From Amphiura filiformis (lineage: Eukaryota > Echinodermata > Ophiuroidea > Amphilepidida > Amphiuridae), in the NCBI RefSeq assembly GCF_039555335.1, contig NC_092628.1, forward strand, positions 80,192,315 to 80,256,314: a stretch of DNA of 64,000 bases, read 5' to 3'. Positions within the stretch are counted from its first letter, which is position 1. Each line of letters opens with the position of its first letter. Made by a program: the position numbers and the translations under genes. Under the pieces are notes generated by a model. It was not told where the DNA came from. It was given only the letters and a program-made list of their open reading frames with translations, and searched no databases. Positions 39,801 to 63,547 of the stretch are shown here, piece by piece.

Positions 39801-42800
39801 CGCAATGGTACCTGCGTTGCATATTTTAGTATGAATTCAATAAAATAAATACCGTAACCACTCGATGAACAATTAAGACAGGTATACTCGACTGACAAAT
39901 TACATTGATTAACATTTTGAGCAAGTTTGAATGGGGTGAAACTGAGTTCGCTCTTACTTTCAGAAAATCTAGAAAATTAAATTAGAGGAATTAATTATTT
40001 GCGGTCATGGGTATTTCGGGGGCAAAATTGTGATATAAAATTGGATCGATTGAGCCCATTGGTCGAGCATGGTACCAAGATTTTCAAACGCCGTGGCGTT
40101 TACTCAGAACAGCAATTTTGTGTATTCGGCACTCTGTCGTGTTCATAACGATATAATCATGATATTCCGGGAATAATTATGCCAGCTTATGTATTAGCGT
40201 ATGATATAAATCAATAAAATAAGGCCGACATTTGTATTAACATCATCGAGTTAAAACATCCCGCCTTAAAATTGTTGGCATATTGAGAGGATTAGGACAC
40301 ATCGCATACAATGTAAGATGTCCCGTGGTGTTTAAATCAATCATAATTAGTCTGTGATTGACAGGCAAGTTGCAGAAATTAAGAACAAAATGAATCATGA
40401 TAACTGTCAATTACAATGTACAATATATCTGAAACATTATAAAATTATGATTATATAATTAAAATAATAGCATTTCAATTAAAGATATATATAATAATAA
40501 GTTATTGTAAAGAGTTGTAACGCCATATCAAGCTATATGAGGATGAATATATAATTATCTGAGACTAATATTTAAAAATTGTTATATCTTTGATTATTTT
40601 AGAACATCACAGTTTAGAATGACCAGAAAACTTTCCTGACAGTTGTTACTATAATAATATTTGGCAAAGAATAACCAAATTAAAATTTGACAGAAATCGT
40701 ATTAATACTGGGCTTTAACCAGTTTTTCAAACAAAATCATTGCATTTTTCTTCTTTGTGGCACTACCTCCGGGTCTTAATCAAATTGAGAGCATACTAGG
40801 CCTACTTGTCAAGCAATCGATCGTACATCAGTGTGTAAGGCACACGGCCGCGGGCCCGGGCAAGTTTTGAAAGTTTTGAACATCTCAAACTTATTTTAAC
40901 TGAGTTTGAGTCGGTAAAATAAAAATACACAAAACTCGCAAGAGTAAGAGTTTTTGTTGTTTTTATTTTCTTTTATATAATGTTTTGTTTTGCCATAGGC
41001 CTATATTATATAAATTATTACACTGGCGATTTATAAGTAATTTACATCATGTTTAACACTACTAGTACTATGCACGCTACGGCAACGTTATACACGGTGA
41101 GTCAATTGGGGCGAACTGGTCGTGGTATGTACGTGTATTGGGGCGAACTGGTCGTGGTATGTAATGTGTATTGGGTGAACTTTTTTGGGGCGAATAGGTT
41201 TCGAGGTGAGACGTCTCGCATTCCTTGCTTAGACAGCTGCTTTAAAAATGAACTTACATGACGTTGCAGGTGGCGAGTGCTGCACTCCATATTGATTTGA
41301 AATAATTTTGAAGAAACCACTGTAAAATGTCAATATCATACTTCGGAAAATACTAAAATTTGAAAATGATATATTAAATCCTTAAAAAAGATCAACTTTG
41401 ACCGATGTTTTAACTACTTTTTTTACAAACGTAATCGGACTTTCTGACCCCTCCCCACTAACGAAAGGACTTTCGTTTATAGGGCTTCATCGAACTTTTG
41501 GGTTGTTCCCTTACAAAGGTCTTTTAAGATCAATGATTAAGATTGTTTGTATTCTAATTATTGAAGATGAATTGTCAAGATATTTCATTTCTTAAGTGGT
41601 AAGTTTAATTTTCTTGTCCCTAGTATCTTCTTCACTGACCAGTCACTTGCCACAGCCATTCACAGAGGAGATGTCAGCTCAACAGAGAGCAGCTAAAGAA
41701 CAAGCTAAGAAATCTAAAGCTGTCACTGTACCTGCAGGGACAACTATTATGAGGAAACTCAAGGGTAGAGAACAAGCAGAAAAACAGGTAAGATGCATGT
41801 CTTGGTGGTACATTTTCATGATTTCAGTTGAAGGTGTGATGACTGAGAGCATAAATCCTTAAACATCAAATAAAGTTGATGATACTATTTAATACAGCGG
41901 TTCCTAAACTGGGTTACAACCCTTGGGGTCACTGCCTCTTTCAAAAGGTCACAGGACTTGCCAGAAATTGTTTTAAAGAATGCATCTCCATGCATTAAAT
42001 GCTGGGTACCATCGTATTGATTATGTAACACCATTTTGACTCATTTTAGCATTAAAATTGAACACTTTTGCACACATTTGTTCCAGTAAAGTTATTCAAG
42101 CCGCCGGTCAGCGGGATGACTTGGAAATTGTGCCCCCCTTGAAAATTTTGCCCAGTACAAAGTTAAGATAAGTTAGATATATTGGATGTTAATAAATAAG
42201 CAGTATGTACACTGGTGTAGATGTCTGATTCTCATGCAAGAGAATATTATTTTTCACACAGTGTGCTATTCTGAAATGGATGACAAAAACATGCCTATGT
42301 TTGATATGATATTGACTATGAACATCGATAAACAAACAATTGCCTCATCAAGTTGATTTTGATTGCTTACAGCCTCAAGACCCAAAACAAGATGCTTGGG
42401 CTAAGAAGAAAGAAGAGAAAGGGGCATCCAATGGTAGCAGCAAACCATCATCAGGAGGAGGAGCTAAAAGTGAGGAGGAACAATGGAGTAATGAGAAAGA
42501 AGTGGAACCTACTCCTAGAACAGACAGGATCTCACATGATTACAAACAGGAATTCCCTAGTGTAGAGGTGGAAAGTAGGAGAGTATTGAAGAAACAAGGG
42601 GGAAATGTCAGAAAGAGTATTGACCAGGTTAAATTACAGGAAGAGGTAGGTGATGAAGCAACTTGTACATGTAGGCAAGACTTATGGGTATTATTACGAT
42701 TAGCCAAGGGATAATAAGGAATAGGAGATTTTGATTTTCAGGATAGCATTAAAGTTAGGATTGGAAATAGTGTCCCTTGCTTCAAATTAACTACCCGTTA

Positions 42801-45800: not shown

Positions 45801-48800
45801 AATACTTTAGTGCTAAAGAAATATTGGAATCATCTTTGAGGTTCTCTGGTTTGTTACCATGGTTACTGAATATGAAGCAAGACGAGACACTCGCATTGAG
45901 AGCACAGGCCATTTTTGTAAGTATTTTTTGTTTAAAACATTAGACTTCAATTATTGTAGGTAAAGATATATTTGATTCATAAAATTTAATTCAGCATGTC
46001 TCAAGAGCTCAGATTTAATCAATAATGATGGTCCATGCAATACAATAATGTGTAATGATAAAGTGGGTTGATGTTCAAGGGGAAAAAGAAAGTGCTAGCA
46101 TATTTCACAAATGCCGCAGTTGAATCTTGTGTACTAAACTAATTCCTCATGGTGTTTACTGATGTCACTACCAAACTTAAAGTGAAAAAGGTCAGTCTAA
46201 TAGTCATACTAATGTACTGAAGAGCTGATTTGCTATTCTTTTGCCAGATTTTTTGTGAAGCTAAAGAATCACCTCATACTAATTTGTGACATGATTTGGT
46301 CCATGGAGGCCAGAGGCATTTGAAATTGAGATAAAGGAAAATATATATGGAGTAAAAAATTTCTCAACTTTAGAACTAGTAACACACAACATAAGATAAT
46401 GTTGTCATAACATCATAAGATGAAGTTATGACAACGTTCTGACAATATTGTGTGTTGGCTGGGCAATTATAGTGAATCAATTTTCAAAAATGCCTCCTTT
46501 GGCTTCCATGGACCAGATCGTGTCAATTTCATATAATGATTTATGAAAGCAATCAAGTCTCTTTTTTTTCTTGACAGTGTTTTATATATCAATGTGAGAC
46601 AGCAGACAGGTGTCCTCCTGAGTTCTGCTATGGGTTTTATAATGGTGTCGCTACTAACCATGCAGATGTAGTCCCAGCTCTATTAGCATCACTCAAGGAG
46701 GATGAGGCAGTTATGAAGAAACTTCAAAGTACGATAGCAAAATATATATGTACAGGGCTGGATTTACCATAGGGCCAGATGGGCCCGGGCCCAGGGCCCC
46801 CAAAATTGCCCTGTGCAGTGTGCATCTTCCATTTTAGCCGAAAAACAAAAAATAGTGTCAAAAATTGCAAAAATTTTCGCGCTCACTGGGTTATTGTATA
46901 TGGCAAAATTCAGCTTCAATTTGGGCTAAAATAGTTTAAAATTGAAATTTTTTTCGCGCGCTTGCGCGTAAATGTCCTAGTAAAGTAGTAAAAACTTTGC
47001 CACTTGAGTGCCCATGTCTTCCTCACGGTGCGATTGGGGCCTCCAAATTTTGGCCTGGCCCAGGGTCCCCAAAAAGGTAAATTCGGCCCTGTATATATGT
47101 ACAATATTTGTCAGAATTTCATACCTGATGAACAGTAGTGCTAATCTTGATTATTGTTAAAATAAAGGCAGCAATCCAGAGTTCAATGGATCAAAGGCAG
47201 CAATCCAGAGTTCAATGGATCAAATCCAACTTTGGGTCGATCCTTCATGTAATTATTTCGTGTAATCTAATCCTAACTCTAATCCTAACCCTAACCCTAA
47301 GCCTAATCCTAACCCTAATCCTAACCCTAACCCTAATCCTAACCCTAATCCTAACCCTAAACTAACCCTAACTCTAACCCTAACCCTAATTTCGTGTAAA
47401 ATTACATGAAGGAATAACCTCAACTGGTCAGGAATAACCTCAACTTTGGCCATTGTTTGCTCCCCTTCATTTTTTTTAACTTTACTTTTTAAGCTGTAAA
47501 TTTTGTTTGACAAAGGCTTCTTTTTTTTAAATTTATTTATTTTTATTTATTTTTTCTAAATTTTATTATTTTTTTTGCAAAAAAAAGGGGGAAAAGTCAG
47601 GGTCGGGCCTTATTTTAGGGTCGGTGGGGTTACTCCAATCAAACTTTTTTTAGGCCTAATGAAAACAAGATATTCCTGAAAAAAATTGGTGTCAGTTCCA
47701 ATTTACAATGTAATTATTATTTGAATGTAATGTTAAAGATGGAATTACATGAGAAGTTTTGCACTGCAGCACTGACAGGAACATTTAGTGGTAGTTCATT
47801 TATCATTAAATAATTATTCACTTACATACGTGTTTTGGCGCAGCGTCAGCCTTCTATTCTAGCTAAAAACGTTTTAAAAATAAAAAATATGCAAATGAGG
47901 TAACTAATTTGCAAATTTTGCAACAAAAATCACATGGGATCTTAAGACTGCACCTTACCATTGCTTACCACCATCCCACCAAGTTAAATCTCTATACGCC
48001 TCACCACTTCTAATAATGGCAAAACGCCTTTTAAAAATAAACAAATATGCAAATGAGGTGGCTAATTTGAATATTTTGCAACAAAAATCATGTGGGATCT
48101 TAAGACTGCCCCTTTACCACCACCATACCAAGTTACATCTATATACCCCCTACCAGTTCCGAAAAATGGCAAAAAGCGTTTTTAAAAATAGAAAAAAAAG
48201 GAAAATGAGGTGGCTGATTTGCATATTTTGTGACAAAAATAGCATCTGATCTTAAGACTGCTCTTAACCATCACCCCACCAAATTACATTTCTATATGCC
48301 TCACCAGTTCGAAAAATGGCCAAAAGCAATTAACAAATAAATAAATAGGCAAATGTACTGACTAACTTGCATATATCTTGCGACAAAAATTGCATCGGAT
48401 CTTACGACTGCCACTTACCACAACCTCATCAAGTTACATCCCTATACATCTTCGAAATGGCAACAACAAAAAAACACCCAAAAACAATTTTTAAGTTAAA
48501 TATGCAAATTAGCTACCTAATTTACGCCAAAACTTGCGCATCAAGTCTTATCGCATCCACTTACCACCACCCTACCAAGTTATACCCCAATACACCTCAC
48601 CAGCTCCGAGAAACTGCCGCTTACCACAACCTCATCAAGTTACATCAATATCGCCTCACCAGTTCTTGAAATGGCAAAAAAAAAAAAACCATAAAAATTT
48701 TTTAAGTTAAATATGCAAATCGGCTACCTAATTTGCATATTTTAGCGCCAAAAATGCATCAAATCTTAGGGCAGCCACTTACCACCACCCTACCAAGTTA

Positions 48801-51800
48801 CACCCAGATACACCTCACCAGCTCCGAGAAACTAGCCTGGAAGCCAAAGGCATGTAAAAACTAGAGTCAACAGATTCTGAGTACAAGCCGCCGCAGTTGA
48901 CCTTTGACCCCTAAACTTTGACCTTTGGGGTCATAAATATTATTATATTTTTAACATGTTTAGAATGTCGTAAGAATAATTCCTGTTGAATTTGAGCTCG
49001 ATTGGACCAATTTCGAAATTTGACCTTTGACCCCTATAACTTGACCCTTGGGTCACAGATGGGGTCAACTGCTCTTGCATTGTGCTTAGGAAGTCATAAG
49101 AAAGATTCCTGGTGAATTTCAGCTTAATCGGAACTTATACATGGATTTTGATTTTTTTGAATTTTGATTGACCTTTTGACCCCCTTAATGACCTTTGACT
49201 TCAATGGAAAAAAAACCTTACGTACACCGACAAAATGCATTGTTCCAATTTTCATAAAAAAATTCCACTATGTTTAGTTGTTGAGATAAAAATTCTTAAA
49301 GTTATTTAGCTAAAAACAGAAAGTGACCCCTTAATGACCTTTGACCCCCAAAATAAAAATAGCATGCATACATCAGGTAGCACTGATTCATGTATGATGG
49401 TTATATTACTCTGGTCTGTTTACATTTTGAGATAAAATTTTTTCGAACATTTTTGGTTTTTGACCGGAAGTAACCCCTTAATGACCTTTGACCCCAAACC
49501 TGTAGGCATCCTAAAGACCCTGGCTAGTAGCAATGCATGTGTGCTAATGGCGACTCTCTGCTATATATTTTGTAAAGACAGTGATTTTTTGAATATTTTT
49601 AGCTTTCAGACCGGAAATGACCCCCCTTAATGACCTTTGACCTCAATTCTTTTTAGGAAGTTTTAAGCACTGCCACATGTTGATTCATATGCATGAGTCA
49701 CATGATCATTGCATGAAATTTGTGGAAGGAGTAGCATTTTTGTGAAATCACATTTTGACCATTATAGCTAGGTCAAAGGTCACAGCAAGGTCAAAGTCAA
49801 ATGGAAGGTTTGGCATAGCCCAGTGGTCTTTTGGGTCAAGTTTGGTTGAAATCTGTCAATCCCTTGCGGAGCTAGATGCAGTTGCATGATTGGTTGCCAG
49901 AAGAAAGAAGAAGAAGAAACTAGAGTCAACAGACGCTGAATACAAGCCGCAATTTGACCCCTATAACTTGACCCCTGGGTTACGGATGGGGTCAACTGCT
50001 CTTGCACTGTGCTTAGGATGTCATAAGAAATATTCCTGGTGAATTTCAGCTTAATCGGAACTTATACATGGATTTTGATTTTTGAAAATTTTTGATTGAC
50101 CTTTTGACCCCTTTAATGACCTTTGACCTCAATGAAAAAAAACCCTTTTATACACCGACAAAATGCATTGTTCCAATTTTAATTAAAAAATTCTAACATG
50201 TTCAGTTCTTGAGATAAAAATTCTTGAAGTTATTCAGCTAAAAACAGGAAGTGACCCCTTAATGACCTTTGACCCCCAAAATAAAAATACCATGCATACA
50301 TCAGGGAACACTAATTCATGTATGTTGGTTATATTATTCTGGTCTGTTTACATTTTGAGATAAAAATTTTTGAACATTTTTGGTTTTGACCGGAAGTAAC
50401 CCCTTAATGACCTTTTGACCCCAAACCTGTAGGCATCCTAAAGACCCTGGCTAGTAGCAATGCATGTGTGCTAATGGCGACTCTCTGCTATATATTTTGT
50501 AAAGACAGTGATTTTTTGAATATTTTTAGCTTTCAGACCGGAAATGACCCCTTAATGACCTTTGACCTCAATTCTTTTTAGGAAGTTTTAAGCACTGCCA
50601 CATGTTGATTCATATGCATGAGTCACATGATCATTGCATGAAATTTGTGGAAGGAGTAGCATTTTTTGTGAAATCACATTTTTGACCATTATAGCTAGGT
50701 CAAAGGTCACAGCGAGGTCAAAGTCAAATGGAAGGTTTGGCCTAGCCCAGTGGTCATTTGGGTCAACTTTGGTTGAAATCTGTCAATCCTTTGCGAAGCT
50801 AGATGCAGTTGATTGGTTGCCAGAAGAAAGAAAGAACTAGAGTCAACAGACGCTGAATACAAGCCGCGATTTGACCCCTATAACTTGACCCCTGGGTCAC
50901 GGATGGGGTCAACTGCTCTTGTGCATTGTGCTTAGGATGTCATAAGAAATATTCCTGGTGAATTTCAGCTTAATCGGAACTTATACTTGGATTTTGATTT
51001 TTTGAAAATTTGTGATTGACCTTTTGACCCCCTTAATGACCTTTGACCTCAATGGAAAAAAAACCTTATGTACACCGACAAAATGCATTGTTCCAGTTTT
51101 AATTAAAAAATTCTACTATTTTCAGTTGTCGAGATAAAAATTCTTAAAGTTATTTAGTTAAAAACAGGAAGTGACCCCTTAATGACCTTTGACCCCCCAA
51201 ATAAAAATAATTTGCATACATCAGGTAACACTGATTCATGTATGATGGTTATATTACTCTGGTCTGTTTACATTTTGAGATAAAAAATTTTGAACTTTTT
51301 GGTTTTTGACCGGAAGTAACCCCTTAATGACCTTTGACCCCAAACCTGTAGGCATCCTAAAGACCCTGGCTAGTAGCAATGCATGTGTGCTAATGGCGAC
51401 TCTCTGCTATATATTTTGTAAAGACAGTGATTTCTTGAATACTTTTAGCTTTCAGACCGGAAATGTCCCCCTTAATGACCTTTGACCTCAATTCTTTTTA
51501 GGAAGTTTTAAGCACTGCCACATGTTGATTCATATGCATGAGTCACATGATCATTGCATGAAATTTGTGGAAGGAGTAGCATTTTTTTGAAATTTTCATT
51601 TTTGACCATTATAGCTAGGTCAAAGGTCACAGCGAGGTCAAAGTCAAATGGAAGGTTTGGCCTAGCCCAGTGGTCATTTGGGTCAACTTTGGTTGAAATC
51701 TGTCAATCCTTTGCGAAGCTAGATGCAGTTGATTGGTTGCCAGAAGAAAGAAAGAACTAGAGTCAACAGACGCTGAATACAAGCCGCATAATTTGACCCT

Positions 51801-54800
51801 ATAACTTGACCCCTGGGTTACGGATGGGGTCAACTGCTCTTGCACTGTGCTTAGGATGTCATAAGAAATATTCCTGGTGAATTTCAGCTTAATCGGAACT
51901 TATACATGGATTTTGATTTTTTGAAAATTTTTGATTGACCTTTTGACCCTTTTAATGACCTTTGACCTCAATGTAAAAAAACCTTATGTACACCGACAAA
52001 ATGCATTGTTCCAATTTTAATTAAAAAATTCTAACATGTTCAGTTCTTGAGATAAAAATTCTTGAAGTTATTCAGCTAAAAACAGGAAGTGACCCTTAAT
52101 GACCTTTGACCCCAAAATAAAAATACCATGCATACATCAGGGAACACTAATTCATGTATGTTGGTTATATTATTCTGGTCTGTTTACATTTTGAGATAAA
52201 AATTTTTGAACATTTTTGGTTTTTGACCGGAAGTAACCCCTTAATGACCTTTGACCCCAAACCTGTAGGCATCCTAAAGACCTTGGCTAGTAGCAATGCA
52301 TGTGTGCTAATGGCGACTCTCTGCTATATATTTTGTAAAGACAGTGATTTTTTGAATATTTTTAGCTTTCAGACCGAAATGACCCCTTAATGACCTTTGA
52401 CCTCAATTCTTTTAGGAAGTTTTAAGCACTGCCACATGTTGATTCATATGCATGAGTCACATTATCATTGCATGAAATTTGTGGAAGAAGTAGCATTTTT
52501 TTTTGAAATCACATTTTTGACCGTTATAGCTAGGTCAAAGGTCACAGCAAGGTCAAAGTCAAATGGAAGGTTTGGCCTAGTCCAGTGGTCATTTGGCTCA
52601 AGTATAGTTGAAATCTGTCGAAGCATAAGAGAGTTAGGGGCGAACGTGGCAAGTCACGCAAAATGTCACGAGGTTGCCAGAAGAAAGAAAGAAGAAAGAA
52701 TTGAGAAGAGACAGAACAAGCCGACATCCGTCGGCGGCTTGTAAAGAAAGAAGAAGAATTAAGAAGAGACAGAACAAGCCGACATCCGTCGTCGGCTTGT
52801 AAGAAAGAAAGAAGAATTGAGAAGAGACAGAACAAGCCGACATTCGTCGTCGGCTTGTAAGAACTAGAGTCAACAGACGCTGATACAAGCCGCAATTTGA
52901 CCCCTATAACTTGACCCCTGGGTTACGGATGGGGTCAACTGCTCTTGCATTGTGCTTAGGAGGTCATAAGAAATATTCCTGGTGAATTTCAGCTTAATCG
53001 GAACTTATACATGGATTTTGATTTTTTGAAAATTTTGATTGACATTTTGACCCCCTTAATGACCTTTGACCTCAATGAAAAAAAAACCTTGTATACACCG
53101 ACAAAATGCATTGTTCCAATTTTAATTAAAACATTCTAACATGTTTAGTTCTCGAGATAAAAAGTCTTGAAGTTATTCAGCTAAAAGCAGGAAGTGACCC
53201 GTGAATGACCGTTGACCCCCAAAATAAACATACCATGCATACATCAGGAAACACTTATTCATGTATGTTGGTTATATTATTCTGGTCTGTTTACATTTTG
53301 AGATAAAAATTTTTTAAACATTTTTGATAATTTTCGTTTTTGACCGGAAGTAACCCCTTAATGACCTTTGAGCCCAAAACTGTAGGCATCCTAAAGACCC
53401 TGGCTAGTAGCAATGCATGTGTGCTAATGGCGACTCTCTGCTATATAATTTGTAAAGACAGTGATTTTTGAATATTTTTTACAAATTTTTCAGACTTTCA
53501 CCGAAATGACCCCTTAATGACCTTTGACCTCAATCTTTTTAGGAAGTTTTAAGCACTGCCACATGTTGATTCATATGCATGAGTCACATGATCATTGCAT
53601 GTAATTTGTGGAAGGAGTAGCATTTTTTGTGAAATCACATTTTTGACCATTATAGCTAGGTCAAAGGTCACAGCAAGGTCAAAGTCAAATGGAAGGTTTG
53701 GCCTAGCCCAATGGTCATTTGGGTCAACTTTGGTTGAAATCTGTCAATCATTGCGGAGCTACATGCAGTTGATTGCGGTTGCCAGAAGAAAGAAGAAGAA
53801 GAAGAAACTAGAGTCAACAGACGCTGATTACAAGCCGCAATTTGACCCCTATAACTTCACCCCTGGGTTACGGATGGGGTCAACTGCTCTTGCATTGTGC
53901 TTAGGATGTCATAAGAAATATTCCTGGTGAATTTCAGCTTAATCGGAACTTATACATGGATTTTGATTTTTTTAAATTTTGATTGACCTTTTGACCCCTT
54001 AATGACCTTTGACCTCAATGGAAAAAAACCCTTATGTACACCGACAAAATGCATTGTTCCAATTTTAATTAAAAAATTCTAACATGTTCAGTTCTTGAGA
54101 TAAAAATTCTTGAAGTTATTCAGCTAAAAACAGGAAGTGACCCCTTAATGACCTTTGACCCCCAAAATAAAAAATACCATGCATACATCAGGTAACACTA
54201 ATTCATGTATGTTGGTTATATTCTGGTCTGTTTACATTTTGAGATAAAAATGTTTTGAACATTTTTGATAATTTTGGTTTTTGACCGAAAGTAACCCCTT
54301 AATGACCTTTGACCCCGAAACTGTAGGCATCCTAAAGACCCTGGCTAGTAGCAATGCATGTGTGCTAATGGCGACTCTCTGCTATGTAATTTGTAAAGAC
54401 AGTGAATTTTGAATATTTTTAGCTTTCAGACCGAAAAGACCCTTAATAACTTGACCCCTGGGTTACGGATGGGGTCAACTGCTCTTGCATTGTGCTTAGG
54501 ATGTCATAAGAAATATTCCTGGTGAATTTCAGCTTAATCGGAACTTATACATGGATTTTGATTTTTTGAAAATTCTTGATTGACCTTTTGACCCCCTTAA
54601 TGACCTTTGACCTCAATGGAAAAAAACCCTTATGTACACCGACAAAATGCATTGTTCCAATTTTAATTAAAAAATTCTATCATGTTCAGTTCTTGAGATA
54701 AAAATTCTTGAAGTTATTCAGCTAAAAACAGGAAAAGACCCCTTAATGACCTTTGACCCCTTATCTGTGACCACCCTATAGACACTGACTAAAGTTGAGT

Positions 54801-57800
54801 CACATGACTTAACCATGTCATCATCACATGTAATTTGTGGAAGGAGTAGCATTTTTTGTGAAATCAACATTTTTGGCCATAAGGTCAAGGTCAAAGGTCA
54901 CAGCCAGGTCAAAGTCATATGGATGATTTGGCCTAGCCCAGTGGTCATTTGGGTCAAGTATGGTTGAAATCTGTCAATCCCTTGCGGAGCTAGATGCAAT
55001 TGATTGGTTGCCAGAAGAAAGAAAGAAAGAAGAATTGGAAGAAGACAGCACAAGCCGACGTTTGACGTCGGCTTGTAAGAAACTAGAGTCAACAGACGCT
55101 GAATACAAGCCGCAATTTGACCCTATAACTTGACCCCTGGGTTACGGATGGGGTCAACTGCTCTTGCATTGTGCTTAGGATGTCATAAGAAATATTCCTG
55201 GTCAATTTCAGCTTAATCGAACTTATACATGGATTTTGATTTTTTAAATTTTTGATTGACCTTTTGACCCCTTAATGAGCTTTGACCTCAATGAAAAAAA
55301 AAACCTTATGTACACCGACAAAATGTATTGTTTCAGTTTTAATTAAAAAATTCTAACATGTTTAGTTCTTGAGATAAAAATTCTTGAAGTTATTCAGCTA
55401 AAAACAGGAAGTGACCCTTTAATGACCTTTGACCCCCAAAATAAAAATACCATGCATACATCAGGGAACACTAATTCATGTATGTTGGTTATATTATTCT
55501 GGTCTGTTTACATTTTGAGATAAAAAATTTTTGAACATTTTTGATAATTTTGGTTTTTGACCGGAAGTAACCCCTTAATGACCTTTGACCCCGAAACTGT
55601 AGGCATCCTAAAGACCCTGGCTAGTAGCAATGCATGTGTGCTAATGGCGACTCTCTGCTATGTAATTTGTAAAGACAGTGATTTTTTGAATATTTTTTAG
55701 ACTTTGACCGGAAATGACCCCTTAATGACCTTTGACCCCTCATCTGAGCACACCCTATAGACACCGACTAAAGTCGAGTCACATGATATAACCATGTCCT
55801 CATCGCATGAAATTTGTGGAAGGAGTAGCATTTTTGTGAAATCACATTTTGACCATTATAGCTAGGTCAAAGGTCACAGCAAGGTCAAAGTCAAATGGAA
55901 GGTTTGGCCTAGCCCAGTGGTCTTTTGTGTCAAGTTTGGTTGAAATCTGTCAATCCCTTGCGGAGCTAGATGCAGTTGATTGCGGTTGCCAGAAGAAGAA
56001 GAAAGAAGAAGAAGAAGAATTGGAAGAAGACAGAACAAGCCGACATTCGTCGTCGGCTTGTAACTATAGTCAACAGACGCTGAATACAAGCCGCAATTTG
56101 ACCCCTATAACTTGACCCCTGGGTTACGGATGGGGTCAACTGCTCTTGCATCGTGCTTAGGATGTCATAAGAAATATTCCTGGTGAATTTGAGCTTAATC
56201 GGAACTTATACATGGATTTTGATTTTTTGAAAATTTTTGATTGACCTTTTTACCCCCTTATTGACCTTTGACCTCAATGAAAAAAAAAATCTTATGTACA
56301 CCGACAAAATGCATTGTTCCAATTTTAATTAAAAAATTCTAACATGTTTAGTTCTTGAGATAAAAATTCTTGAAGTTATTCAGCTAAAAACAGGAAGTGA
56401 CCCCTTAATGACCTTTGACCCCCAAAATAAAAATACCATGCATACATCTGGGAACACTAATTCATGTATGTTGGTTATATTATTCTGGTCTGTTTACATT
56501 TTGAGATAAAAATGTTTTGATCATTTTTGATAATTTTGGTTTTTGACCGGAAGTAACCCCTTAATGACCTTTGACCCCGAAACTGTAGGCATCCTAAAGA
56601 CCCTGGCTAGTAGCAATGCATGTGTGCTAATGGCGACTCTCTGCTATGTAATTTGTAAAGACAGTGAATTTTTGAATATTTTTAGTAGACTTTGACCAGA
56701 AATGACCCCTTAATGACCTTTGACCCCTTATCTGAGCACACCCTATAGACACCGACTAAAGTCGAGTCACATGATATAACCATGTCCTCATCGCATGAAA
56801 TTTGTGGAAGGAGTAGCATTTTTTGTGAAATCACATTTTTGACCATTATAGCTAGGTCAAAGGTCACAGCGAGGTCAAAGTCAAATGGAAGGTTTGGCCT
56901 AGCCCAATGGTCATTTGGGTCAACTTTGGTTGAAATCTGTTAATCCTTGCGAGCTACATGCAGTTGATTGCGGTTGCCAGAAGAAAGAAAGAAACTAGAG
57001 TCAACAGACGCTGAATACAAGCCGCAATTTGACCCCTATAACTTGACCCCTGGGTTACGGATGGGGTCAACTGCTCTTGCATTGTGCTTAGGATGTCATA
57101 AAAAATATTCCTGGTGAATTTCAGCTTAATCGGAACTTATACATGGATTTTGATTTTTGGAAAATTTTTGATTGACCTTTTGACCCCCTTAATGACCTTT
57201 GAACTCAAAAAAAAAAAAACCTTATGTACACCGACAAAATGAATTGTTCCAATTTTAATTAAAAAATTCTAACATGTTCATTTCTTGAGATAAAAATTCT
57301 TGAAGTTATTCAGCTAAAAACAGGAAGTGACCCCTTAATGACCTTTGACCCCCAAAATAAAAAATACCATGCATACATCAGGGAACACTAATTCATGTAT
57401 GTTGGTTATATTATTCTGGTCTGTTTATATTTTGAGATAAAAATGTTTTGAACATTTTTGATAATTTTGGTTTTGACCGAAGTAACCCCTTAATGACCTT
57501 TGACCCCAAAACTGTAGGCATCCTAAAGACCCTGGCTAGTAGCAATGCATGTGTGCTAATGGCGACTCTCTGCTATGTAATTTGTAAAGACAGTGAATTT
57601 TTGAATATTTTTAGACTTTGACCAGAAATGACCCCTTAATGACCTTTGACCCCTTATCTGAGCACACCCTATAGACACCGACTAAAGTCGAGTCACATGA
57701 TATAACCATGTCCTCATCGCATGAAATTTGTGGAAGGAGTAGCATTTTTTGTGAAATCACATTTTTGACCATTATAGCTAGGTCAAAGGTCACAGCGAGG

Positions 57801-60800
57801 TCAAAGTCAAATGGAAGGTTTGGCCTAGCCCAATGGTCATTTGGGTCAACTTTGGTTGAAATCTGTCAATCCTTGCATGGAGCTACATGCAGTTGATTGC
57901 GGTTGCCAGAAGAAAGAAGAAACTAGATCTGGCTACAGATCTGGACCTAGCCGGGGCCGGAAATGCCAGTCTTAAAGTTTGACCTTTGACCGGCTATTAT
58001 GGATATCTCACACCATTAATGGTGTATCACTGTAGCATGTAGGGGCTTTATCCGTCTTCCATAGGCTGAGATACAGCTACTTTTCCGTAATTTTAAACAT
58101 TTTTTGCAACTGTGACGTTTTGACCTCCTTAATGACCTTTGACCCCAATACAAAAAAACCCTCATATACACCGGGAAAATGCATTGTTACAGTTTAAATT
58201 AAAAAATTCTACTATGCTTAGTTATGGAGATAAAAATTCTTAAGTTATTTAGCTTAAAACCGAAATGACGTCTAAATGACCTTTGACCAAAAAATAAAAA
58301 TACCGTGCATACATCGGGTAACACTAATGCATATATGAAGTTTATGTCACTCTGGTCTGGTTACGCTTTTGAGATAAAAAAAATGAACATATTTGATGAT
58401 TTTTGGTTTTTTTTTTTTTTTTACCCCTTAATGACCTTTGACCTCAAAACTATAGACACCCCAAAGACCCTGGTTAGTAGCAATACATGTGTGCTAATGA
58501 CAACACTCTGCTATGTAATTTGTAAAAACAGTGATTTTTTGAATATTTTTAGCTTTCAGACCGGAAATGACCCCTTAATGACCTTTGACCCCTTATCTGT
58601 GAACACCCTATAGGCACCGACCAAAGTCAAGTCACATGACCTAAGCATGTCACCATCACATGTTATTTGTGGAAGAAGAAGCATTTTAGAGTAAAATCGC
58701 ATTTTTGCCATTGTGAGCAGGTCAAAGGTCAAATGGAGTTCAATTTCATGTCACATGTGGGGACTTGGTCAGTGGTGTTTGTGACCAAGTATGGTCAAAA
58801 TCAGTCAAAGCATAACAGAGCTAGGGCGAAACGTGGCAAGTCACGCAAAATGTCACGTGTTGCCAGAAGAAAGAAAGATCCGATAGCATCACAAGACCTA
58901 GCCGGTGTCCCGGCTAGGTAAGAAAGAAGAAGAAGAAGAATTGAGAAGAGACAGAACAAGCCGACATTCGTCGTCGGCTTGTAACTAGAGTCAACAGACG
59001 CTGAATACAAGCCGCAATTTGACCCCTATAACTTGACCCCTGGGTTACGGATGGGGTCAACTGCTCTTGCATTGTGCTTAGGATGTCATAAGAAATATTC
59101 CTGGTGAATTTCAGCTTAATCTGAACTTATACATGGATTTTGATTTTTGAAAATTTTTGATTGACCTTTTGACCCTTTTAATGACCTTTGACCTCAATGA
59201 AAAAAAATCCTTATGTACACCGACAAAATGCATTGTTCCAATTTTAATTTAAAAATTCTACTATGTTTAGTTGTTGAGATAAAAATTCTTGAAGTTATTT
59301 AGCTAAAAACAGGAAGTGACCCCTTAATGACCTTTGACCCCCAAAATAAAAATACCATGCATACATCAAGTAACACTGATTCATGTATGATGGTTATATT
59401 ACTCTGGTCTGTTTACATTTTGAGATAAAAATCTTTTGAACATTTTGGTTTTTGACCGGAAGTAACCCCTTAATGACATTTGACCCCAAAACTGTAGGCA
59501 TCCTAAAGACCCTGGCTAGTAGAGATGCATGTGTGCTAATGGCGACTCTCTGCTATATAATTGGTAAAGACAGTGATTTTTTGAATATTTTTAGACTTTG
59601 ACCGAAATGACCCCTTAATGACCTTTGACCCCTTATTTGAGCACACCCTATAGACACCGACTAAAGTCAAGTCACATGATATAACCATGTTCTCATCGCA
59701 TGAAATTTGTGGAAGGAGTAGCATTTTTGTGAAATCACATTTTGACCATTATAGCTAGGTCAAAGGTCACAGCAAGGTCAAAGTCAAATGGAAGGTTTGG
59801 CCTAGTCCAGTGGTCATTTGGCTCAAGTATGGTTGAAATCTGTCGAAGCATAAGAGAGCTAGGGCGAAACGTGGCAAGTCACGCAAAAATGTCACGAGGT
59901 TGCCAGAGGAAAGAAGAAAGAAAGAAGAATTGAGAAGAGACAGAACAAGCCGACATCCGTCGTCGGCTTGTAACTAGAGTCAACAGACGCTGAATACAAG
60001 CCGCAATTTGACCCCTATAACTTGACACCTGGGTTACGGATGGGGTCAACTGCTCTTGCACTGTGCTTAGGATGTCATAAGAAATATTCCTGGTGAATTT
60101 CAGCTTAATCGGAACTTATACATGGATTTTGATTTTTTGAAAATTTTTGATTGACCTTTTGACCCCTTTAATGACCTTTGACCTCAATGTAAAAAAAACC
60201 TGATGTACACCGACAAAATGCATTGTTTCAATTTTAATTAAAAAATTCTAACATGTTCAGTTCTTGAGATAAAAATTCTTAAAGTTATTCAGCTAAAAAC
60301 AGGAAGTGACCCCTTAATGACCTTTGACCCCCAAAATAAAAATACCATGTATACATCAGGTAACACTGATTCATGTATGTTGGTTATATTATTCTGGTCT
60401 GTTTACATTTTGAGATAAAAATTTGTTGAACATTTTTGGTTTTTGACCGGAAGTAACCCCTTAATGACCTTTGACCCCAAACCTGTAGGCATCCTAAAGA
60501 CCCTGGCTAGTAGCAATGCATGTGTACTAATGGCGACTCTCTGCTATATATTTTGTAAAGACAGTGATTTTTTGAATATTTTTAGCTTTCAGACCGGAAA
60601 TGACCCCCTTAATGACCTTTGACCTCAATTCTTTTTAGGAAGTTTTAAGCACTGCCACATGTTGATTCATATGCATGAGTCACATGATCATTGCATGAAA
60701 TTTGTGGAAGGAGAAGCATTTTTTGTGAAATCACATTGTTTACCATTATAGCTAGGTCAAAGGTCACAGCGAGGTCAAAGTCAAATGGAAGGTTTGGCCT

Positions 60801-63547
60801 AGCCCAGTGGTCATTTGGGTCAACTTTGGTTGAAATCTGTCAATCCTTTGCGAAGCTAGATGCAGTTGATTGGTTGCCAGAAGAAAGAAAGAAGAAAGAA
60901 TTGAGAAGAGACAGAACAAGCCGACATCCGTCGTCGGCTTGTAAGAATTGAGAAGAGATAGCACAAGCCGACGTTTGACGTCGGGCTTGTAAAGAAAGAA
61001 AGAAAGAAAGAATTGGAAGAAGACAGAACAAGCCGACATTCGTCGTCGGCTTGTAACAAAGTTCACACAATACAAATGTATAAGACCCCATTATTTTATC
61101 ATGATTATAGCATAAGGCAATTTATAAGTCATTTTAAATGATTTTAAATGTGACGATATAAAATTTGTCTATAACACAGGGAGATATAAAATGTAGGGAT
61201 TTGGGTACTTTTTTGTTCAATTTTCACAGAAATTGAAGGATTTTGACCTATGTTTTTGTTTGTCTGTTTACCCCTGGGTCGCTGAAACAAAGAATTATCC
61301 TACTATAATTCACCAGAATCTGTCTGTTTGTGTGTTTGTGTGTTTGTGTGTCTGTCTGTCCGCCTCTTTTCTCGGAGACTGGGGGTCGCACGTTCCTCAA
61401 ACTTGGTGGGTGGGTGCAGCTTGGTATGGGGAAGAACGAGTTTATATTGGTTAGTGGGTCAAGGTCACCCAAGGTCATCCAGGGGTCATATTAGTAAAAA
61501 CTGTTTTTCTCTGAGACTGGGGGTCGCACGTTCCTCAAACTTGACGGGTGGGTGCGTCTTGACCCGGGACAGAACAAGTTTGTATTGGTTAGTGGGTCAA
61601 GGTCACCAGAGGTCATCTAGGGGTCAAATTAGTAAAAACTGTCATATGGGCATGAAACTTGGTGGGTAGGTGCATCTTGACCTAAGACGGAACAAGTTTG
61701 TATTGATTAGTGGGTCAAGGTCACCCAGGGGTCATCTGAGGTCAAATTAGTAAAAACTGTTTTCCGCCTATTTTCTCGGACACTAGGGGTCGCACGTTCC
61801 TCAAACTTGGTGGGTGGGTGCATCTGGACCTCAGACAGAATAAGTTTGTTTCGATAGTGAGCCAAGATCACCCGAGGTCATCCAGGGGTCATTTGAGGTC
61901 AAATTAGTAAAAACTATCGTATGGGCATGAAACTTGGTGGGTACAGTCAACTTTTATAGTCAAATTTTTGGAAGGTCATTTTGGGGTCATCCGGGGTCAC
62001 CCAGGGGTCATCTGAGGTCAAATTAGTAAAAAATGTCGATGCGCATGAAACTTGGTGGGTACAGTCAACTTTTAGAGTCAAATTTTTGGAAGGTCATTTT
62101 GGGCTCATCCAAGGTCAAATTACTAAAAACTGCCAAGGGCATGAAACGTGGTGGGTACAGTCAACATTTAGAGCTAAATTTTGGGAGGTCATTTTGAGGT
62201 CATCTGAGGTCAAATTAGTAAAAACTATTGGCATCAAACTTGGTGAGTACAGTCACCATCAGCCAGGTAATCGCGACAGCCGAGAACCGCCAAATACGGG
62301 TAACCGCCTAGTATTAATTAAATCACCTAATTTCTATCTATACTATAATAATCATAAGCGTTGTCTGTCTGTCCGGCTATGCGTTTCGCCGCGCTTCGCC
62401 GCATCAATCCGATATTTGGGACATGGGTAGGTGCCAGGAAAAGCATGTTGACCGTGTGATTTTGAAGGTCATCGGAGGTCATTGGAGGTCAAGGTCAAAG
62501 GTCAAATTTTTCAAACTTTGTCCGATCGGGCCCGATCGGGCCCAAATTTGGTGGGTGGAATCCTTGATACGAGGGGTATATATGCCTGAAATAAAATCGA
62601 GGTCAACCGAGGTCAAAGGTCATTACGGAGGGGTCAAATTTCAAACTTTGTCCGATCGGGCTCAAACTTGGTGGGTCGAAACCTTCGTATGAGGGGAGCA
62701 TGAAAAACATTATATGGAGGTCATCCAAGGTCAAAGGTCATGGATTTCAAACTTTGTCCTATGGGGTTCAAACTTGGTGGGTGCAATCCTTGATACGAGG
62801 GGAATATATGCGCAAAACAAAATTGAGGTCAACCGAGGTCAAAGGTCATGTAGGGGCTAAATTTAAACTTTGCCCTATTGGGCTTAAACTTGATAGGTGG
62901 AATCCTTTGTATGACTGAGGGGAGCATGAAACAGTATCGCTATCGTGCCAGTGCTCTCACAGCATCTGGGCTCTCATAGCCGCAGGTGCACTAGTATAAT
63001 TAATAAAGGACAAAGAAAGATAAAAGCAAAAGTATGCTTCATTTAGTTAAAACAATAGTAACATCCCTGTTGTGTACAAAAATATAACTCTATACGACAA
63101 TGCAAATCAGGATCAATTTGTGGACTAAGTGCACAGGGAAATGTTGAGTATGTAAATTAAATGGAACAGCCAAAATGCCAATGGGTATGTAATTTAACTA
63201 GAACAGCCTAAAATTGATATCGATATTAATATTGACGTCACAGATTCGATTTGTCACGTGATCGTCAAACCTGTACTAAAGGTGTCAGTTCTGCAGGAAC
63301 TGACACAAAAATGTCATGTAATCCCTTGTTAGATGTCAATTAGACATTTCAGTGGAAAGTGTCAAGTGTAGATCAATTTTTGTTGAGCATCTGATAGCCA
63401 TATTTCTGTCCTTTATTAGATGATCTGCAAGAAGGGGAAGATTTAGCAGCAAGATGGGACCAGTTGTGTGGTATGTCCATTGGTGCCTTAGCTGAACTAG
63501 TATTTCTTCCATTGGGTCTGGATACATGTTTGGAAGGCAAGAGAAAG
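30804..63547 (+). CDS. STK36: Fused-family Ser/Thr kinase, 14 coding exons, 3' incomplete
   Basis: STK36 is the animal homologue of Drosophila Fused. It acts in Hedgehog signalling in flies and in motile-cilium central-pair assembly in vertebrates. Coding exons are 30804-30887, 31428-31646, 32418-32597, 33012-33170, 33533-33574, 33979-34072, 41624-41787, 42373-42645, 43108-43331, 44388-44487, 45198-45289, 45811-45916, 46578-46728 and 63420-63547. Phases agree throughout, giving 672 residues. The kinase domain spans about 4-254: glycine loop GEGSFGKV (11-18), Lys33, HRD 123-125, DFG 143-145 and APE 168-170, all catalytic residues present. Residues 260-405 form a Lys/Glu-rich linker, and 406-672 begin the large C-terminal region. 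The family is about 1300 residues, so roughly half lies beyond the window. Introns 7 and 14 are inflated to 7.6 and 16.7 kb by repeats. Confidence 0.93.
31428..31646 (+). CDS. STK36: STK36 coding exon 2 (29-101)
   Basis: Starts VVALKFIPK with catalytic Lys33 and contains the C-helix ([11 protein letters not shown]) and the hinge region [13 protein letters not shown]. Donor gtgagt, phase 0. Confidence 0.93.
31753..31798. repeat. Hairpin in STK36 intron 2
   Basis: ACACGCACCCCT and AGGGGTGCGTGT are perfect complements separated by 22 nt. The remainder of this intron (31647-32417) shows no gene. Confidence 0.6.
32418..32597 (+). CDS. STK36: STK36 coding exon 3 (102-161)
   Basis: Carries the catalytic loop HRDMKPQN (123-130) and CDFGFARAM with the Mg-binding DFG. 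Acceptor tttacag, donor gtaaaa, phase 0. Confidence 0.93.
32598..33011. other. STK36 intron 3
   Basis: No gene or clear repeat. Ends in a T-rich tract plus gttgttgttgcag. Confidence 0.5.
33012..33170 (+). CDS. STK36: STK36 coding exon 4 (162-214)
   Basis: [20 protein letters not shown] (P+1 loop and APE), then [20 protein letters not shown]. Donor gtattt, phase 0. Confidence 0.93.
33533..33574 (+). CDS. STK36: STK36 coding exon 5 (215-228), 42-nt microexon
   Basis: Encodes only [14 protein letters not shown], between cttttcag and gtaaga. It joins exons 4 and 6 in frame and matches the order of the family kinase domain. Confidence 0.9.
33979..34072 (+). CDS. STK36: STK36 coding exon 6 (229-259)
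   Basis: [20 protein letters not shown] closes the kinase domain with the conserved Arg of subdomain XI. Donor gtaagc, phase 1; the next exon is 7.55 kb away. Confidence 0.92.
34390..34510. mobile_element. Snapback repeat in STK36 intron 6/7 region
   Basis: TTTGAAGA, TTGGCAGTGG and CTTTGTGAATGGGGACA are followed 10-20 bp later by their complements (TGTCCCCATTCACAAAG, CCACTGCCAA, CTTCAAA). The 121-bp stretch folds almost end to end. Noncoding; probably a foldback element. Confidence 0.65.
36973..37336. mobile_element. MITE nested in the large element
   Basis: CCTAAAGCCACGATTTCTCC at the left is matched by the inverted CACGGAGAAATCGTGGCTTTAAGG (cited in parts) at the right. The interior repeats TTTCCGTG several times. 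About 364 bp, noncoding. Confidence 0.72.
37770..38530 (+). repeat. Dispersed repeat, pair of 9885-10290
   Basis: Repeats the block order of the 9.9-kb copy (TAGACTATGCCATAGTCGA through GTGAAAATCTATCAATT), with about 320 bp of unrelated sequence at about 38090-38410. Confidence 0.7.
38619..39375. mobile_element. Inverted-repeat element enclosing telomere-like repeats
   Basis: The left arm (38697-38740) with TTTCTTTCTGCAACCATAAT is matched by the inverted right arm (39311-39359) with ATTATGGTTGCAGAAAG and GGCCCGGCGGGCC. A CAGGGACGGATTTA motif at 38619 resembles a hAT-type left end, but no matching right end was found. Between the arms lies AT-rich DNA and then a block of CCCTAA repeats. Confidence 0.65.
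39042..39272. repeat. Interstitial telomere-like (CCCTAA)n block
   Basis: About 230 bp of CCCTAA units with variants CCCCTAA, AAACCCTAA and CCATAA. CCCTAA is the complement of the canonical animal telomere TTAGGG. Confidence 0.9.
39376..40600. other. Interior of the large TIR element, no gene seen
   Basis: AT-rich, no open frame with transposase resemblance. Confidence 0.4.
41624..41787 (+). CDS. STK36: STK36 coding exon 7 (260-314)
   Basis: [20 protein letters not shown], then a charged stretch ([13 protein letters not shown]) and GREQAEKQ. Start of the linker after the kinase domain. Acceptor tgtccctag, donor gtaaga, phase 0. Confidence 0.85.
41897..42150. mobile_element. Possible hAT-type remnant
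   Basis: CAGCGGTTCCTAAACTGGG is very similar to the left end of many hAT non-autonomous elements. No matching right end was found, so the remnant's extent is a guess. Confidence 0.35.
42373..42645 (+). CDS. STK36: STK36 coding exon 8 (315-405)
   Basis: Low-complexity linker: Lys/Glu-rich and Ser/Gly-rich ([18 protein letters not shown]), then [19 protein letters not shown]. Poorly conserved part of the family, kept because splice sites and phase fit. Donor gtaggt. Confidence 0.82.
43108..43331 (+). CDS. STK36: STK36 coding exon 9 (406-480)
   Basis: [20 protein letters not shown] resembles the acidic DNEW motif region of the family, followed by [20 protein letters not shown], the start of the helical C-terminal region. 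Donor gtaggt, phase 2. Confidence 0.87.
43605..43995 (+). pseudogene. 5'-truncated LINE, 3' end with C-terminal peptide
   Basis: An open frame to 43874 encodes [20 protein letters not shown], then [18 protein letters not shown] and a final CQCPNCRPI. This is the typical C-terminus of non-LTR retrotransposon RT proteins. The rest of the element is missing, as expected for 5' truncation. It lies in STK36 intron 9, same strand, followed by AT-rich 3' sequence. Confidence 0.78.
44388..44487 (+). CDS. STK36: STK36 coding exon 10 (480-513)
   Basis: [20 protein letters not shown], then [13 protein letters not shown]. Acceptor tctccacag, donor gtgagt; restores the frame after the phase 2 junction. 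Confidence 0.88.
44488..45197. other. STK36 intron 10
   Basis: No gene recognised. Contains a short self-complementary GTTTACACAGTAAAC (about 44793-44807). Confidence 0.4.
45198..45289 (+). CDS. STK36: STK36 coding exon 11 (514-544)
   Basis: [20 protein letters not shown], helical. The acceptor is good (ttttcag) and the donor is gtatac, phase 2. Confidence 0.85.
45811..45916 (+). CDS. STK36: STK36 coding exon 12 (544-579)
   Basis: [20 protein letters not shown], then [15 protein letters not shown], helical repeat-like. Acceptor actttag, donor gtaagt, phase 0. Confidence 0.85.
46578..46728 (+). CDS. STK36: STK36 coding exon 13 (580-630)
   Basis: [20 protein letters not shown], then [20 protein letters not shown]. 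The donor gtacga is weak, but the phase 1 junction joins the next exon in frame. A transposon begins only 23 bp into the following intron. Confidence 0.8.
46752..47092. mobile_element. hAT-type MITE with 8-bp target duplication
   Basis: Inverted ends ACAGGGCTGGATTTACC and GGTAAATTCGGCCCTGT (imperfect), with GGGCCC-rich subterminal sequence. ATATATGT stands directly outside both ends (46744-46751 and 47093-47100). Noncoding, 341 bp. Confidence 0.8.
47165..47223 (+). repeat. Two-copy 31-bp tandem repeat
   Basis: AAGGCAGCAATCCAGAGTTC plus AATGGATCA occurs twice back to back. Confidence 0.8.
47241..47413. repeat. Telomere-like repeats between inverted arms
   Basis: TCCTTCATGTAATTATTTCG...TGTAA on the left and TTTCGTGTAA-AATTACATGAAGGA on the right partly invert each other. 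Between them (47266-47391) stand CCTAACCCTAA-type units, degenerate telomere repeats. Confidence 0.8.
47861..48832 (+). repeat. ~150-bp tandem repeat, about six units
   Basis: Each unit carries AAATATGCAAATGAGGT or a variant, 'GGGATCTTAAGACTGC', 'CCACCAAGTTACAT' and 'CCTCACCAGTTC' before AAATGGC. Units start near 47861, 48019, 48170, 48320, 48462 and 48675. They are diverged by point changes and indels. Immediately followed by the large satellite. Confidence 0.85.
48863..61056 (+). repeat. Satellite array, ~12 higher-order units of 0.92-1.1 kb
   Basis: Units begin ACTAGAGTCAACAGACGCTG near 48863, 49919, 50836, 51756, 52863, 53807, 55082, 56063, 56994 (variant at 57922), 58984 and 59973. A truncated junction unit lies near 54443. 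Each unit is largely made of ~146-bp submonomers that share GAGATAAAAATT or AAAGACAGTGATTTTTTGAA, then GGAAGTGACCCCTTAATGAC, then CTTTGACC. Most units end in GAAGAAAGAA-type tracts, often with the hairpin ACAAGCCGAC...GTCGGCTTGT. About five perfect TGACCTTTGACC words occur per unit. Open frames within it repeat from unit to unit and are by-products. The array lies wholly in STK36 intron 13/14. Confidence 0.95.
58896..58919. repeat. Variant hairpin at a unit end
   Basis: ACCTAGCCGG, loop TGTC, CCGGCTAGGT form a perfect 10-bp stem with arms different from the common ACAAGCCGAC type, in the equivalent place after a purine tract. Confidence 0.8.
61057..61360. other. Spacer after the satellite
   Basis: Begins CAAAGTTCACACAATAC after the last GGCTTGTAA; AT-rich, with a TGTGTTTGTGTG simple repeat at about 61321-61352. 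Confidence 0.5.
61360..62260 (+). repeat. Second tandem repeat family rich in AGGTCA words
   Basis: Units contain GGGGGTCGCACGTTCCTCAA, then ACTTGGTGGGTGGGTGC, AGTGGGTCAAGGTCACC, AGGGGTCA and 'AAATTAGTAAAAACTG'. Full copies are spaced about 138-147 bp, shorter in the right part (about 61900-62240). Sequence differs from the main satellite except for the GGTCA words. Confidence 0.82.
62440..62930 (+). repeat. Third tandem family, ~120-145-bp units
   Basis: Units contain TTTCAAACTTTGTCCGATCG, GGGCTCAAACTTGGTGGGT, 'CCTTGATACGAGGGG' and GAGGTCAACCGAGGTCAAAG. Preceded by TTGTCTGTCTGTCCGGCTATG (62361), a boundary-like sequence. Confidence 0.78.
62931..63419. other. End of the STK36 16.7-kb intron
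   Basis: No gene. Ends in a T-rich tract and ctttattag, the acceptor of the next exon. Confidence 0.5.
63420..63547 (+). CDS. STK36: STK36 coding exon 14 (630-672)
   Basis: [20 protein letters not shown], then [20 protein letters not shown] and KRK. Phase 1 entry matches the previous exon and the donor is gtgagt. The frame and helical character continue across the 16.7-kb intron. Family resemblance here is weaker than in the kinase domain. Confidence 0.78.

Follow-up and report, generated by a model that had tools for sequence, protein, structure and literature searches.

Why should some 12 kb of repeated sequence in the genome of the ophiuroid Amphiura filiformis hold dozens of nearly identical copies of what looks like a nuclear-receptor binding site? 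The question is raised by a 64,000-nucleotide stretch of contig NC_092628.1 (assembly GCF_039555335.1, forward-strand positions 80,192,315 to 80,256,314), which we call the window and number from its first base. According to our analysis, the repeats form a nest of about 13 HINE-like transposons, that is, non-autonomous Helentron-type elements, probably intronic in a host kinase gene and antisense to it, and a short box around the motif TGACCTTTGACC would have been preserved in them for the propagation of the elements. We regard this reading as rather likely. A first-pass annotation, made from the sequence alone, had described the array as a satellite, whereas we read its units as nested mobile elements with paired ends and stacked hairpins. 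The span it gave, 48863..61056, is practically equal to the one found here, and its count of about 12 units stands, except that one unit (53807-55081) is a fusion of two, which gives 13 element bodies. The layout is as follows:

48860-61056, minus strand: the whole nest, 12 units or 13 HINE-like bodies (U1-U12, U6 being the fused 6a and 6b)
48860-49918, minus strand: U1, the leftmost outer unit, with an extra ~123-bp submonomer and two more DR1 sites (48898, 49021); lacks an assignable 5' hairpin
49919-52860, minus strand: U2, holding U3 and U4 in its GAA/TTC microsatellite; hairpin 52832-52858 by bracket order
50836-52802, minus strand: U3, with U4 nested inside; hairpin 52774-52800 by bracket order
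51029-51048, minus strand: example of the box, site A of U3, reading CCCCTTAATGACCTTTGACC on the plus strand; also at 51175, 51320 and 51468 in U3
51617-51629, plus strand: site E of U3, AGGTCAAAGGTCA, opposite in orientation to sites A-D
51756-52744, minus strand: U4, uninterrupted; hairpin 52716-52742
52863-53806, minus strand: U5 body, followed by U6 within the U5 microsatellite
53807-55081, minus strand: U6, fusion of 6a and 6b, 6b itself being a fusion of a B box and a D box; hairpin 55050-55076
55082-56062, minus strand: U7, uninterrupted; hairpin 56035-56061
56063-56993, minus strand: U8 body, head ACTATAG
56994-58983, minus strand: U9, with U10 nested inside; hairpin 58956-58982
57922-58921, minus strand: U10, divergent subfamily, with an 11-bp subterminal inverted repeat (subTIR) ACCTAGCCGGG, hairpin 58896-58919 and, on the minus strand, the 3' palindrome AGATCTGTAGCCAGATCT
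58984-59972, minus strand: U11, uninterrupted; hairpin 59945-59971
59973-61056, minus strand: U12 body (to 60944, own hairpin 60916-60942) and two 5' ends of outer elements
60963-60990 and 61028-61054, minus strand: the stacked 5' ends after U12, from outer elements

Sixty-seven matches to TGACCTTTGACC with at most one mismatch occur in the window, 63 in the array and four in a separate repeat at 62493-62848; 100 shuffles of the whole window gave a mean of 0.33 and a maximum of 2. The 57 exact 12-mers of the array (45 on the plus and 12 on the minus strand) conform to RGGTCA-N-RGGTCA, the consensus of the DR1 nuclear-receptor response element, and bear out the roughly 60 sites claimed at first. 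The perfect 13-mer AGGTCAAAGGTCA accounts for 28 of them (16 on the minus, 12 on the plus strand) and the GGGTCAAAGGTCA form for 27. In total we recognised 64 sites, comprising 49 of types A-D, 12 of type E and three head sites. The starts annotated in the unit at 50836-51755 (51037, 51183, 51328 and 51476 on the plus strand) are all correct, as are their spacings and the fifth, opposite-strand copy (AGGTCAAAGGTCA from 51617, with its 12-mer at 51618 on the minus strand). Across the 11 complete elements the A-B, B-C and C-D distances are 144-156 bp (mean 148.1, standard deviation 3.8, n=33), and the 146 bp originally given is thus a typical value, not an exact one. The phased-nucleosome array once proposed finds no sequence support and was rejected, on this range of spacings and on the element ends that interrupt and close each four-site run.

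The units are about 0.92 kb long, and their own sense is that of the minus strand, on which they run from 5' TTACAAGCCGAC..GTCGGCTTGT through a TTC/TTTC microsatellite and the central repeats to CGGCTTGTA, a possible short palindrome and CTAGT. Read along the plus strand, 10 of 12 units start with ACTAGAGTCAACAG (U8 has ACTATAG and U10 ACTAGATCTGGC), and the bodies close at GTTGCCAGA, followed by a GAA/GAAA tract (TTC/TTTC on the element strand). Past the tract stands a hairpin such as ACAAGCCGACATCCGTCGTCGGCTTGTAA in some units and directly the next head in others. The ~146-bp submonomers of the core resemble one another mainly in the box.

The two ends of an element belong together. The nest holds 11 tail hairpins; the one at 61026-61056, which was the one tested of ten in the main family, folds at -11.9 kcal/mol (z -6.5) and that of U10 at -12.5 kcal/mol (z -7.7). 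Main-family head and tail (taken from U2 and from the final tail of the array) share a 9-bp inverted match that 7 of 2000 shuffles equalled, and the U10 head matches its own tail over 11 bp (1 of 2000), while pairing the head of one family with the tail of the other leaves a match of only 5 bp, which 1043 and 1246 of 2000 shuffles equalled. The ends thus agree within an element and fail when swapped, which implies that both changed together. With a body only 68-74% identical to the other complete bodies, U10 is the strongest single argument, as its ends differ from those of the main family yet match within the element in the manner of terminal signals of mobile elements. On the plus strand all 12 heads have an A directly before them and all 11 tail hairpins an AA directly after, pointing to T-T target sites on the element strand. 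Three nested sites close without an obvious target duplication, although the tract repeats could mask one. Linked subTIRs, a 5' hairpin, a 5' microsatellite with a tandem core and a T-T target are therefore all present, and by this anatomy the units are HINE-like. The subTIRs of Helentrons are given as 11-15 bp in the available text of two accounts (PMC7492417, PMC4067079), and the main-family repeat is shorter at 9 bp. A canonical Helitron (5' TC, 3' CTRR, insertion between A and T) was considered and rejected, the 5' end here being TT/TA. A CTAG does stand at the 3' end (CTAT in U8), but no tail has an A as its 5' neighbour, the next plus-strand base being A in 11 of 11 after TA, and A, G or C after TAA.

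What is conserved in these elements is longer than the 13-bp DR1 first put forward. Over the 49 A-D sites a block of ~20 bp, CCCCTTAATGACCTTTGACC, extends from -8 to +11 with 86-100% identity per position, and the thirteenth base of the DR1 varies between C and T; the base after the block is a pyrimidine (T or C) at 48 of the 49, which gives RGGTCA, with a purine first, on the element strand. An additional TGACCC half-site precedes the DR1 on the plus strand. Its distance is 5 bases in B (10/12 sites) and D (8/12) and 6 bases in A (10/13), and it is absent from all 12 C sites. For the conservation analysis we aligned the 13 bodies with 6a and 6b as separate rows, omitted U10 from the main-family counts (12 rows) and kept the columns in which at least 8 of 12 rows have a letter. 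A motif that evolves more slowly than its spacer was the test named by the first-pass annotation, and this is what we found: 6 of 671 cells (0.9%) are off consensus in the five main-family 12-mers, against 495 of 9550 (5.2%) outside. As few fell under the mask in 4 of 905 circular shifts, and GC-matched windows gave p=0.008. With U10 included the counts are 6/730 inside and 762/10380 outside (2 of 904 shifts). Within single elements (six of the 11 complete ones) the A-D 12-mers agree at 72/72 positions in five and at 69/72 in U9, the 8 bases before them are 77-100% identical and the rest 44-52%. Consensuses of the submonomer types agree at 108/108 positions of the 12-mer, 83/91 of the 11 bases before, 16/27 of the three after and 470/967 of the rest; they were built without gaps, which blurs the spacers, but the real submonomers of the six elements give a like picture.

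Variants shared by at least two elements arose before or during the spread of a family, and those of a single element mostly after insertion. Between U10 and the main-family consensus there are 0/59 differences in the 12-mers and 157/659 outside (zero in 5 of 726 mask shifts), a comparison that begins after column 179 of 906, as U10 does not align before that point. Informative columns number 0/60 inside the 12-mers and 95/846 outside (p=0.0017). Private changes number 6/671 inside and 144/9550 outside (p=0.25), and the contrast between U10-fixed and private changes gives p=0.013. A box frozen between subfamilies, together with private changes that are not significantly depleted, suggests that constraint acted while the elements moved and seems not detectable at the present locus. 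Such a pattern would be expected of a sequence needed for mobility and free to decay later, although cells of one alignment are not independent and the test is modest.

The ends also record how the pile was built. Behind the U10 tail come a second tract and a main-family hairpin that complete U9; the three hairpins behind U4 are taken to close U4, U3 and U2, and another three stand behind U12, the middle one of which (60963-60990) has a one-base bulge and is absent from the automatic hairpin list. These stacks of 3, 3 and 2 make five surplus hairpins, against six junctions that lack one, which shows that elements inserted into the microsatellites of earlier ones. When U10 is removed from U9, U4 from U3, and U3 with U4 from U2, the restored tails measure 82, 78 and 78 bases and resemble in make-up the five uninterrupted tails of 72-78 bases (tails were cut at TA or TAA, and lengths are accurate to one base). 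The deletion that joins 6a to 6b within U6 is read as having lost one tail and one head.

Each element carries a core of ~146-bp repeats, and we posit that the pile arose as such elements inserted into one another. A new copy would have entered a T-T step of the TTC/TTTC microsatellite that lies close behind the 5' end of an older copy, or alternatively exactly the 5' end of an earlier one. The anatomy of the elements, their nesting and the slow change of the box from one subfamily to another are established by the sequence, and selection on propagation is what we infer from them. During copying the ~20-bp box with TGACCTTTGACC would have stayed unchanged because it helps propagation, and after insertion it may decay much like the remaining sequence. 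A host nuclear receptor of the HNF4, COUP-TF or RXR class may bind the box in nuclei of the germ line or early embryo and open the donor copy; alternatively, the box may have a direct part in rolling-circle initiation or in repeat exchange.

Several observations weigh against this account. The 3' palindrome folds well in U10 only (z -3.5), and in U2 (z -0.2) and U1 (z +0.9) it does no better than shuffles. The conserved block reaches 8 bases past the DR1, an extension that receptor binding by itself leaves unexplained. Two spacer-variant subsets give weaker conservation (10/903 and 68/899 shifts; GC-matched p=0.05 and 0.08), and conservation at the recent level alone is therefore not strong evidence. 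Informative columns set against private changes alone yield p=0.084, and the test of private changes is low-powered, with 6 seen where ~10 are expected at the outside rate. Hairpins are one short, 11 tails for 12 heads, U1 being without an assignable tail; counted from the right, all other heads are paired, so that one tail was lost or U1 is truncated. Adjacent units are slightly more alike than in random order (0.9385 vs 0.9241, p=0.035; U6 and U10 excluded), and some unequal exchange is possible. Finally, exchange between boxes, as in the B-D fusion of 6b, could likewise keep the boxes alike.

This last point is the core of a serious rival, in which recombination or template switching between identical boxes maintains them without selection and the likeness to DR1 is incidental. 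The 6b body passes from box B straight to the sequence after box D, the 6a/6b join falls within GACCC..TTAAT, and two unlike D spacers (D1 and D2) start immediately past the box, all of which marks the boxes as places of recombination. Furthermore, the DR1 amounts to two heptads AGGTCAA, and in prokaryote genomes all seven loci with two DR1s 104-134 bp apart (a distance that matches the 118-bp neighbouring repeat described below, not 146 bp) have at least one site in a period-7 array. However, the base beside the 12-mer is specific to the submonomer type (T in A and D1; C in B, C and D2) and mostly stable across units, and exchange tracts would need to stop within ~20 bp. The E site, on the opposite strand, is also exact in all 12 elements that possess one. 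Because the flanking base keeps its type-specific state, it is doubtful that exchange alone held 20 bp identical while the spacers diverged by a quarter, and we consider this explanation possible but unlikely.

A rolling-circle concatemer, in which a single transposition missed its 3' stop and laid the units head to tail, appears distinctly improbable. Three exact tail-to-head junctions, CGGCTTGTAACTA (U7/U8, U10/U11 and U11/U12), are what it would leave, but these fit insertion at the 5' T-T of a neighbour or rolling-circle run-on alike. Tandem arrays of Helitrons have indeed been ascribed to bypassed termination (work cited in the available text of PMC4067079). Stacked hairpins and hairpin-less junctions in the microsatellite nevertheless demand insertion, and the divergence of complete main-family units (2-12%) and of U10 (27-32%) is excessive for one event.

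For a true satellite, in which unequal crossing-over multiplied a 0.92-kb higher-order unit and the DR1 is the oldest shared part of an ancestral ~146-bp monomer, speak the head-to-tail order, the single orientation, the slight excess similarity of neighbours and the exchange at boxes in U6. Yet the stacked hairpins, the hairpin-less junctions, the paired subterminal repeats at the unit ends and the foreign nested element with matching ends in mid-array speak against a classical satellite, minor unequal exchange aside, and U2 and U12 are 98.1% identical though ten units apart; we hold this explanation to be quite improbable. Very improbable is a function at the locus, as an intronic receptor-binding cluster, enhancer or sink kept by host selection: 57 exact sites within 12 kb might suggest it, and a sink has been proposed for transposon-borne HNF4 sites in Alu (available text of PMC3252374), but private substitutions are not significantly rarer in the motif (p=0.25, at low power) and insertion preference already accounts for the pile. 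Of the interpretation first offered, the motif and its slower evolution relative to the spacer therefore hold, while the satellite and the 13-bp unit do not, and nucleosome phasing and a locus function find no support.

To return to the nest of HINE-like elements and its preserved box, two repeats on its right bear on the matter:

61300-62336, plus strand: neighbouring GTCT-microsatellite repeat element, GGTCA-rich, without a DR1 12-mer
62337-62993, plus strand: further neighbouring element with a GTCT microsatellite, 118-bp repeats and four exact DR1 12-mers

The element at 62337-62993 has short inverted repeats of 8 and 7 bp near its ends (found without a shuffle control) and is probably another Helitron-like element. 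Its copy at 62611 reads AGGTCAAAGGTCATTAcggaGGGGTCA, a nest-like box with extra bases, and the same DR1 in a different neighbouring element counts for our reading. The element at 61300-62336 contains 25 GGTCA sites, and of the 24 gaps seven are 10 bp and seven 11 bp, a spacing close to one helical turn. GGTCA/TGACC occurs 2.4 times per kb in 1-47000, 21.6 times in the nest, and 26.0 and 24.4 times in 61300-62336 and 62337-62993, respectively; its density is 0 in the 150-bp array at 47820-48859. This separate ~150-bp tandem array (47865-48830) adjoins the nest on the left, and no inverted repeat of at least 7 bp was found between the stretches taken as its ends.

A host nuclear receptor may serve the HINEs of this lineage as a cue for propagation, their DR1 sets, most of them with a third half-site nearby (RGGTCA-A-AGGTCA-ttaag-GGGTCA), acting like iterons that open the element in germ-line chromatin, an idea we advance tentatively and on balance doubt. 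It would explain why the same DR1 recurs in an unlike element next door and why the GGTCA density of both neighbouring elements is ~10 times the background. If the box does enable spread, a lineage of rolling-circle transposons exploits a host receptor, the satellite-like cores of Helentrons are working parts rather than passengers, and with every burst of elements strong receptor sites are strewn by the dozen in the vicinity of genes. Independently of any receptor, the nest shows how single transposons can simply become a satellite-like array, by insertion into the element's own microsatellite.

Reading frames place the nest between probable plus-strand exons at 33.99, 42.3 and 43.1 kb and one at 63.42 kb, and its position is likely intronic. 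The piece at 33.99 kb resembles a kinase C-lobe (Pkinase match below the curated cut-off; ULK3, E=0.0011); it alone matched, and the 42.3-kb piece had no database match. The host gene may be STK36/fused, a name that no database match gives. Elsewhere in the window, 11249-13284 (plus strand) holds a broken reverse transcriptase and a GIY-YIG domain in adjacent frames (Pfam RVT_1, GIY-YIG), presumably a Penelope-type element, and a second reverse transcriptase piece lies at 15340-15690. Interstitial telomere-like TAACCC-type arrays occur at 39043-39268 and 47267-47389, and a 32-bp minisatellite at 35644-35749 has a reverse-complement copy 5.4 kb off at 41105-41175 (TRF consensus units).

Rfam returned no family in the window at the gathering threshold. 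The viral contigs contained no exact match to the 20-bp box GGTCAAAGGTCATTAAGGGG and no pair of DR1s 103-133 bp apart. Two DR1s 134-163 bp apart occurred at two viral loci, apparently the same stretch in opposite orientations (L001 5930-6087 and L002 402-559), where inverted GGTCA repeats surround three AGGTCAAAGGTCA sites spaced by 71-74 bp; given this arrangement they were rejected as relatives of the nest elements. The viral and prokaryote collections are without animal genomes and have no bearing on the absence of the family. In the mainly open-access literature, the box, the hairpin and the neighbouring repeat string had no match, a strict query for receptor sites in invertebrate transposons had none either (wider searching gave Alu and HNF4), and no report of a DR1-bearing HINE was found. 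The string TGACCTTTGACC itself does occur in 14 publications, including two echinoderm papers, as a text match only. In 2010 Coates reportedly described, to go by the title only, a Helitron-like element of Lepidoptera disrupting (GAAA)n microsatellites; insertion into a GAAA-type microsatellite is as seen here, and the title does not state the element's own microsatellite as target.

The closest parallels come from Helentron-type elements of other invertebrates. In the available text on Crassostrea gigas, HINEs are ordered as 5' subTIR, complementary repeat, microsatellite, central repeats, 3' subTIR and palindrome, two segments recur in monomers that are dissimilar elsewhere, and insertions are reported from non-coding parts of genes (PMC7492417). 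These Cg_HINEs are like the nest elements in their inverted repeats, microsatellite, satellite-type core and T-rich target without duplication; they differ in that neither a receptor-like box nor the term 'nuclear receptor' appears in that text, whereas our elements nest in the microsatellite of their own kind and end in a 3' CTAG with the subTIR 22-23 bases from it. Remnants of Helitrons and Helentrons in C. gigas are likewise found inside other such elements, but are truncated or tandemised pieces, and the available part of that review mentions neither regular own-microsatellite nesting nor a receptor-like motif; it does regard short conserved motifs in satellite repeats as possible proliferation signals (PMC12628747). 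DINE-1 and the mite HINE-Mo share the hairpin and subTIR logic and the TT preference with the nest, although the 3' subTIR of HINE-Mo lies 38-60 bp from the end, and a proto-Helentron of Phytophthora shares 5' TT and 3' CTAG but inserts between A and T (PMC4067079, as available). Alu offers a mobile element that spreads receptor-binding sequences, with a sink discussed, but it is a retrotransposon with measured HNF4 binding (PMC3252374, as available), whereas our box is a candidate site. HINEs with satellite-like cores, elements within elements and conserved repeat segments are thus already described in the accessible parts of these sources (PMC7492417, PMC12628747), and what A. filiformis adds to them is a conserved DR1-like box in HINEs together with nesting in the element's own microsatellite.

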